This document shows positions 34,722 to 38,520 of a stretch of 64,000 nucleotides of DNA, in pieces. The position numbers and the translations under genes are program-made. How positions within the stretch are numbered: the stretch's first letter is position 1; every line of letters begins with the position of its first letter. The stretch is from Cryptosporangium minutisporangium (lineage in GTDB: Bacteria; Actinomycetota; Actinomycetes; Mycobacteriales; Cryptosporangiaceae): NCBI RefSeq assembly GCF_039536245.1, contig NZ_BAAAYN010000006.1, positions 248,001-312,000 of the forward strand, given 5' to 3'. The notes under the pieces were generated by a model. The model had not been told where the DNA came from. It saw only the letters and a program-made list of their open reading frames with translations, and did not search any database.

Positions 34722-37447
<2,726 letters not shown>

Positions 37448-37504: not shown

Positions 37505-37990
37505 CTACTCGGGTGCCTCGACGAGACGCTGCAGGTTGTCGAGCGACGTCTCCAGCGCGCTGAGCGGAACGACCGGCCAGGTCAGCCGCTCCAGCAACTT
37601 GGGGTGGACGCCGCTCCAGTCGCAGTACGACGTCACCTCGGTCGCGGTCGCGCTGACCGGCGCGAGCAGGTAACCGTAGGTGTGGCCGAGCGGGGACCGA
37701 TCCACCGAGCCCGGCTGCCAGGCGAGCTCCACGTCCGGGACGAAGCGGAGAACGGTGTTCTTCACCGTGTACTTGCCCAGCGGCAAGTCGCCGAGCGGCT
37801 CCCGGTCCATGTTCATGATGAACGTGTCGCCGACCGCGCGGAGCCGCTGCGAGTCGGGGGAGACCATCAGCATCCCGGACCCGTCGATCGCGACGTGACC
37901 GTCGGGATCGCTGATCACCGCGAAGATCCGGTCCGCCGGTGCGGCGATCCGGCGCGTGGTGGCGATGCGCTGTTCCACTGATTCGGGCAC
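37505..37990 (-). CDS. SRPBCC-family (polyketide cyclase/dehydrase-like) protein
   Basis: A 161-residue helix-grip protein. TTRRIAAPADRIFAVISDPDGHVAIDGSG is the N-terminal block (residues about 11-39), TEVTSYCDWSG is a core strand, and LETSLDNLQRLVE is the C-terminal helix. The GTG at 37990 follows AAGGAG with a rather long spacer. The ligand is unknown. It is convergent with katG and shows no operon partner. Confidence 0.8.
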   Translation of the reverse strand: MPESVEQRIATTRRIAAPADRIFAVISDPDGHVAIDGSGMLMVSPDSQRLRAVGDTFIMNMDREPLGDLPLGKYTVKNTVLRFVPDVELAWQPGSVDRSPLGHTYGYLLAPVSATATEVTSYCDWSGVHPKLLERLTWPVVPLSALETSLDNLQRLVEAPE

Positions 37991-38159
37991 GGCAGGCCGC
38001 TCCTTTGCGGTCGGGACCCCCGGTACCGGTCATCGTGGCGCGGCGGACGAATCCGCCGCAGGCAACGTGATCCAGTTAACGCCGCGGACAACCCTGCCGG
38101 GTCATCAAAATAACAAGCCCATACCCGCCTACGGAGACCCGAGGGCCGGAACAAGCAGC

Positions 38160-38188
38160 GGCCCGGAGTGCGGTGTGCACTCCGGGCC
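38160..38188 (-). terminator. Strong stem-loop after the small peptide gene
   Basis: GGCCCGGAGTGC pairs perfectly over 12 bp with GCACTCCGGGCC around a five-base loop. On the minus strand GCTGCTTGTT follows, moderately T-rich. It lies 28 bases after the stop of the 44-residue peptide, so the peptide has its own transcript end. Confidence 0.75.
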
Positions 38189-38216
38189 GGTGCGGCGCTG
38201 TGACTGGGGGTGGGGC

Positions 38217-38351
38217 TCAGTAGCGGTTGTAGTCCCAGCAGTCGTTGTAGCGCTTCTTGTGGTGGCGGCGACGGCGGCGCGGCTTGTAGCAGTCGTTGTA
38301 GTCCCAGTCGTTGCAGTGGTTGTTGTAGTCGTAGTCGTAGCAGCCGCTCAT
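38217..38351 (-). CDS. 44-residue Cys/Tyr/Asp/Asn-rich peptide with basic core (novel)
   Basis: The minus-strand ATG at 38351 follows AGGAGG with an eight- to nine-base spacer. The product begins MSGCYDYDYNNHC, has a central KPRRRRRHHKKR, and ends YNDCWDYNRY. It contains 4 Cys, 8 Tyr, 7 Asp, 6 Asn and 2 Trp, and no Ala, Val, Leu, Ile, Phe, Thr, Glu or Gln. NDWDYNDCY and YNDCWDYN are near-copies flanking the basic core. Nearly every codon ends in C or G, as in real genes here. A 12-bp terminator follows. It could bind metal, RNA or polyanion, or be a precursor peptide; no family is recognised. Antisense chance repeats are the alternative. Confidence 0.65.
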   Translation of the reverse strand: MSGCYDYDYNNHCNDWDYNDCYKPRRRRRHHKKRYNDCWDYNRY

Positions 38352-38454
38352 GTCGTCCAGCCTCCTGAAGTTGTGGTCCGGGGCGTGTTCCCCGTGTGTC
38401 AGTAGCTTCGCGCTGAGCGGGCGGCGGTTCGATCGGCCCGCAAACGGCCGCAGC

Positions 38455-38468
38455 GTTCGCTTCCGAAC
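38455..38468. promoter_or_regulatory. Palindrome upstream of the 44-residue peptide gene
   Basis: GTTCG-CTTC-CGAAC is a perfect 5-bp inverted repeat about 105 bases upstream of the peptide ATG, in the 169-base gap after the LacI gene. A second small hairpin (CGGGG/CCCCG) lies at 38379-38394. No convincing -35/-10 pair was found. Confidence 0.35.
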
Positions 38469-38520
38469 ACTCGCGCGCTGGGGCGGCGTCCGGCGCGGGC
38501 GGACGGTAGCCAGCGGCGGC

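Follow-up and report, generated by a model that had tools for sequence, protein, structure and literature searches.

A dispersed multicopy micro-protein family restricted to the actinobacterial genus Cryptosporangium

Results

Architecture of the locus

The window, a stretch of 64,000 nucleotides from the genome of Cryptosporangium minutisporangium, carries on its reverse strand a gene for a 44-residue peptide, MSGCYDYDYNNHCNDWDYNDCYKPRRRRRHHKKRYNDCWDYNRY, which is preceded by a ribosome-binding site and three upstream blocks and followed by a hairpin. The features of the locus and the parts of the peptide are as follows.

38217..38351 (−): gene of the 44-residue micro-protein; ATG 38349-38351, stop codon TGA 38217-38219
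38361-38366 (−): AGGAGG ribosome-binding site, 9 nt 5' of the ATG
38384..38412 (−): block C, CGCGAAGCTACTGACACACGGGGAACACG, delineated by alignment of upstream regions
38429..38437 (−): block B, GCCGATCGA, delineated by alignment of upstream regions
38451..38469 (−): block A, TGTTCGGAAGCGAACGCTG, an imperfect inverted repeat; family consensus TGTTSnnAnnCGAACGTTC
38160..38188 (−): hairpin with a perfect 12-bp stem and a 5-nt loop (arms 38160-38171 and 38177-38188), which closes the unit
Residues 1-21: N-arm, acidic, aromatic and Cys-containing
Residues 23-34: polybasic centre, KPRRRRRHHKKR
Residues 35-44: C-arm, YNDCWDYNRY

The peptide is devoid of Ala, Val, Leu and Ile, and Tyr, Asp, Asn and Cys account for 57% of its residues versus 11% in neighbouring genes; at the composition of those genes, 43 residues free of A/V/L/I/M would be expected with p ~2e-9. 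Charge is segregated along the chain, with −5 for the N-arm, +9 for the centre and −1 for the C-arm; each arm contains Tyr and Trp, and the centre contains Arg. The window copy contains four Cys and three His residues, and no signal peptide is recognisable in it. The hairpin resembles an intrinsic terminator and begins 28 nt past the stop codon, with no clear or strong T-run after it.

These data reproduce exactly the reading frame, composition and ribosome-binding site given in the initial annotation, as well as the 12-bp hairpin after the stop codon and an imperfect palindrome upstream of the frame (GTTCGGAAGCGAAC). The two near-copies of an N-D-C-aromatic-D-Y-N motif described there reduce to a single exact occurrence, NDCWDYN at residues 36-42, the first being the rearranged NDWDYNDCY.

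Copy number and taxonomic range

Searched at the DNA level, the source genome of the window (G000; 9.23 Mb in 152 contigs) yielded ten genes of this type, and a peptide search recovered the same ten. We found ~20 copies in the congener G001, 10 in G002 and 17 in G003, the last a single contig of 9,195,993 bp, and extracted 57 members in all (10 from the window's own genome and 47 from the three congeners). Some of the counts from draft assemblies are lower bounds because several G000, G001 and G002 contigs stop at or near a copy.

The gene is absent from G004, the only genome of the sister genus in the same taxonomic family, and a survey of ~790 genomes, 395 from the class and 399 from the order, brought up nothing else convincing outside the genus. 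The order also gave weak matches in four other genera (E 0.004-0.024); these span 16-25 low-complexity columns only, two lying within far longer frames and one running across a stop codon, and we read them as chance. An alignment search of genome_contigs (84,980 species, from which records near the source genome may be omitted) returned no match. A degenerate DNA pattern for NDCWDY hit one Chitinophaga genome in genome_contigs, which we also attribute to chance, and had no match in viral_contigs or among phages and plasmids. Three family members gave 0 matches in Pfam and NCBIfam (E up to 1) and 0 among PDB chains (E up to 10), and a literature search yielded no description of such a micro-protein. 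In this sampling, the previously undescribed family is confined to one genus of spore-forming soil actinobacteria, Cryptosporangium, each genome carrying 10 to 20 copies at scattered sites.

Evidence for a real coding gene

The frame from ATG to stop codon is intact in 48 copies from four species, all with a readable ATG, and the start, ribosome site and terminator are retained in nearly all copies. Length differences amount to whole codons and include an in-frame 30-residue version (L103, MSGCYDNSYDYDCRPRRHHKNDCWDYSYCN). Residues M1, S2, P24, R25, R29, R34, C38 and W39 are conserved and Y18, C21, R26, D40 and Y41 nearly so; in other words, the N-terminal MS, the polybasic centre and CWDY are kept, whereas the N-arm and the last residues vary between copies. 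The median dN/dS within genomes is 0.39, a value resting on ~19 synonymous sites per copy that codon selection alone could hold uniform, and reaches ~0.8 between genomes on poorly alignable, uncertain alignments.

Codon use is extreme. C or G is the last base of 99-100% of two-fold codons, in agreement with the GC-ending codons noted initially: Tyr is encoded by TAC in 100% of cases, and GAC, AAC, TGC and CAC each exceed 99%. Among Arg codons, CGT reaches 40% versus 10% in neighbouring genes and CGA, AGG and AGA do not occur; CGC and CGT together make up 90% of those in the family, whereas the neighbours are CGG-rich. Such codon bias is typical of highly expressed genes.

A long Val-rich frame runs antisense to the peptide gene (37956-38405, + strand), which a gene finder could miscall. 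None of the 48 copies interrupts this poly-Val frame, since the codon choice of the peptide gene gives no reverse stops. We rejected the antisense reading because it is the strand of the peptide that has a conserved start, ribosome-binding site and terminator.

The 44-residue peptide is, by these signatures, the product of a real gene. The proposal that length cut-offs had missed it is strongly supported, and the relatives mostly lack the frameshifts, or the loss of start codon and ribosome site, that would have spoken against it, 48 intact copies being set against a few that are decayed or truncated. Selection keeps this short-ORF family in all four sampled species of the genus.

A self-contained ~310-bp unit

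Each copy forms a self-contained unit of ~310 bp that comprises the upstream element, the ribosome site, the peptide gene of ~40 codons and the hairpin terminator. Alignment of 48 upstream regions revealed three blocks (TGTTSnnAnnCGAACGTTC-nnGnCGT; GCCGATCGAGC; GATCCGCGCGAAGCT..TGGCA), followed by a 5' untranslated region of variable length and by GGAGGCTGGACGAC-ATG, the ribosome-site stretch GGAGGCTGGACGAC being conserved in most of the family. Block A is probably a regulator site, and block C is presumed to hold the core promoter and the start of the 5' untranslated region. Allowing up to three mismatches, the block A pattern occurs at 66 places in the four genomes of the genus, most of them at family copies, compared with one match for the reversed pattern and none in G004. 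For a FliA/WhiG-like reading of block B (GCCGATCGA), neither the spacing nor the second half of the box presumably fits. The upstream element matched none of the regulator motifs with which we compared it and is unlike the Actinoplanes sigma-SsdA motif, GnTT-n14-CGGGTA (PMC10733313).

A hairpin with z < −2 follows the stop codon in 51 of the 57 copies, and the 57 hairpin sequences are all distinct. With the ATG as reference, homology between copies at different sites usually stops around −130 and +195, reaching somewhat further in a few G001 and G003 pairs.

The element also precedes other genes. In G003, G000 and G002 (L097, L100 and L121), it lies ~106 nt before another short open reading frame, of the type M-I-S/T-L-D/E...RRCPCDR...GGCVGR, and in G001 it precedes a truncated version of the same type (L106). 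An exported trypsin-like protein (Trypsin_2, E 8.5e-13) is encoded downstream of this short frame in G003, G000 and G001, the genomes examined. At L120 in G002 (G002:C1:329254), the element stands 102 nt before the ATG of a 37-residue Tyr-rich peptide, MSYGTETYEESGSAGTDYFCYENGYYYRATARPRDDR, a possible second class of micro-protein. The presence of the element upstream of other short open reading frames therefore points to a regulon of short peptides.

Evolution of the copies

The coding part and 48 nt of leader are 79% identical within genomes and 61% between them, and for 44 of 47 copies the nearest coding-part neighbour lies in the same genome. Promoter blocks depart from this pattern, with 56% identity within and 52% between genomes, as do the 3' ends (49% and 42%). 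Nine pairs combine coding parts at least 95% identical with promoters only 57-67% identical, and eight G003 copies encode one identical peptide with 1.5 silent differences per pair. The copies on G000:C43 and G000:C8 are 99% identical, over the unit only.

Three sites are common to G000 and G002. Two of them pair G000:C44 with G002:C10 and G000:C11 (298.6 kb) with G002:C1 (969.2 kb); the third, judged by matching spacing and terminator, pairs G000:C11 (291.1 kb) with G002:C1 (976.3 kb), where the promoter and terminator are kept and the coding part is missing. Decayed sites that retain promoter and terminator with the coding part missing include L122 and L101 (G000:C78), the promoter of L101 being joined to the terminator. 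L104, L096, L098 and L119 are further decayed, truncated or incomplete units.

The coding parts look much younger than the promoters and terminators around them, a sign of old loci that were homogenised later. The simplest reading of these patterns would be that the copies occupy old dispersed loci at which gene conversion and selection have made the coding parts uniform, and that a whole unit has now and then been duplicated recently (G000:C43/C8). Given the strength of codon selection, gene conversion is a likely rather than a proven homogenising process. In-frame length variation, extreme codon choice and homogeneity of the coding parts within genomes together indicate selection for a high dose of one product.

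Genomic surroundings

No neighbour gene recurs around the copies. The downstream gene differs from site to site, on the same strand in 25 cases and on the opposite strand in 27, and the few recurrent neighbour families among those that Pfam could identify, which are only part of the neighbours, are all large and generic (ECF sigma factors, HxlR, ABC, IS transposases and ADH). The window neighbours, katG, an SRPBCC protein and a LacI regulator, are not kept together in the congeners, and genomic context therefore gives no clue to function.

Discussion

A disordered block polyampholyte as the leading reading

Tyr-Arg and Asp-Arg contacts drive the condensation of disordered proteins with polyanions. 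Our leading reading, which we hold tentatively and at somewhat less than an even chance, its cellular role included, is that the micro-protein would be an abundant disordered block polyampholyte, with a polyanion-binding basic centre and self-associating arms that are acidic, aromatic and Cys-bearing. AlphaFold2 returned a mean pLDDT of 52.6 and no secondary structure from 23 related rows, which is weak evidence of disorder, and the peptide is accordingly only predicted to be disordered and charge-segregated.

In this model, the many copies would yield an abundant product, whose Arg/His/Lys centre could bind DNA, RNA, polyphosphate or a wall polyanion. The acidic Tyr/Trp arms could pair with Arg residues of other copies through cation-pi and Asp-Arg contacts, so that copies would condense together, and the kept cysteines C21 and C38 could lock the assembly under oxidising conditions. 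The shared upstream element would switch the copies on together, plausibly during spore or sporangium formation or under stress, the link to sporulation being drawn from the identity of the genus and from analogy. As it has no recognisable signal peptide, the micro-protein would be expected to remain and act in the cytoplasm, except where lysis sets it free. Among the functions suggested in the initial annotation, we infer polyanion binding to be the best.

A broader proposal, which we regard as possible and rather doubtful, is that of a new micro-protein system: a regulon of dispersed self-contained units with homogenised coding parts and diverging promoters and terminators, encoding a disordered Tyr/Arg/Asp coacervate former, and controlled by a genus-specific element under which other short peptides rich in Tyr or Cys are also expressed. 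Gene finders tend to lose such genes through their length cut-offs, yet this family persists at up to ~20 copies per genome. It offers an example, readily open to test, of a lineage-specific small-protein regulon, of concerted evolution among dispersed genes of very small size, and of a minimal Tyr/Arg/Asp block polyampholyte occurring in nature.

Alternative readings

Small acid-soluble proteins (SASP) of Firmicutes are encoded by many dispersed monocistronic small-protein genes with features like those of highly expressed genes. A spore nucleoid or structural protein of this kind, many copies of which would coat spore DNA or the sporangium interior, is a specific version of the polyampholyte model and, by analogy, a minority possibility. 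It agrees with the dispersed single-gene units present in several copies, which would set dose by copy number, with the codon use and with a genus that probably forms sporangia; nucleic-acid binding is plausibly common to both. The micro-protein differs from SASP in belonging to another phylum, in being shorter, predicted disordered and rich in Tyr, Asp and Cys, and in its polybasic centre; it has no sequence relation to SASP or to any other Pfam or NCBIfam family, and none of the genomes sampled outside the genus has it. Were it to condense spore nucleic acid or matrix, it would perform a function already known of SASP in a new and non-homologous way. The spore-wall protein SspA of Actinoplanes missouriensis, a putative intrinsically disordered protein required for sturdy sporangia, lends this reading some support, being likewise a disordered protein of a sporangium-forming actinomycete as far as the descriptions compare; SspA is exported and sortase-anchored, whereas the micro-protein has no export signal (PMC13293333).

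A RiPP-type precursor, modified in trans by one distant enzyme to give bioactive or matrix peptides, is unlikely. Scattered precursors with arms rich in Tyr, Trp, Cys, Asp and Asn and a varying N-arm beside a kept remainder would suit it, as would the prochlorosin-type precursors, which are reported to be handled by one solitary promiscuous enzyme, an arrangement that would fit the scattered copies (PMC10783134). However, no neighbour recurs, and no modification enzyme was recognised beside the copies checked, at which Pfam identified some of the neighbours; the part that is kept is the polybasic centre and the C-terminal CWDY, with no split into leader and core, no Gly-Gly-type cleavage site and no signal peptide. 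The sequences are also homogeneous and not hypervariable, with none of the conserved-leader, variable-core layout of prochlorosins. The same points tell against the initial suggestion of a precursor modified on Tyr, Cys or Asp.

The units might instead be a spreading, gene-bearing interspersed repeat, the peptide being kept for the sake of the element. Units of ~310 bp at unrelated sites whose homology mostly breaks off around −130 and +195, the near-identical pair on G000:C43 and C8 and the decayed remnants are what such a selfish element would leave. Comparison of unit edges by eye, however, recognised no terminal inverted repeats or target-site duplications, and beside the tRNA array of G000:C8 homology with G002 ends before the copy, leaving no clean empty site. 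Together with promoters and terminators that look older than the coding parts, and with three sites common to G000 and G002, one of which has no coding part in G002, this makes a mobile unit seem improbable.

Metal or redox sensing through cysteines and histidines, also raised initially, is weakened to the point of being very doubtful. Although the window copy has four Cys and three His residues and C21 and C38 are nearly invariant, the other cysteines and their spacing come and go, and the conserved parts, the polybasic centre and CWDY, form no metal-ligand pattern.

A leader peptide for attenuation, or an upstream frame regulating the next gene, would account for the hairpin that comes after runs of similar codons, yet is hardly credible given downstream genes that differ at every site and split almost evenly between the strands (25 and 27). 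Enterobacterial Ldr, Ibs and Hok are likewise small self-contained units for small peptides, repeated around the chromosome, and resemble the present units in size and distribution. We rejected a type I toxin since the peptide has no A/V/L/I and no hydrophobic stretch, whereas these toxins are, as a rule, short hydrophobic peptides of the membrane under the control of repressing RNA antitoxins (PMC8309996, PMC6563280). The defining features of a leader peptide and a type I toxin are missing here, as are those of a RiPP precursor at the copies checked, and comparison by eye recognised none of a classical transposon.

Additional observations

An array of 21 tRNA genes directly adjoins one family copy (L014:8827-11445, on G000:C8), and we found no family copy at the related array of 16 tRNA genes on G002:C2 (L129). 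The window also encodes a katG-like peroxidase (35102-37447, + strand) with three related places in G002, which indicates that this genus has several catalase-peroxidase paralogues.
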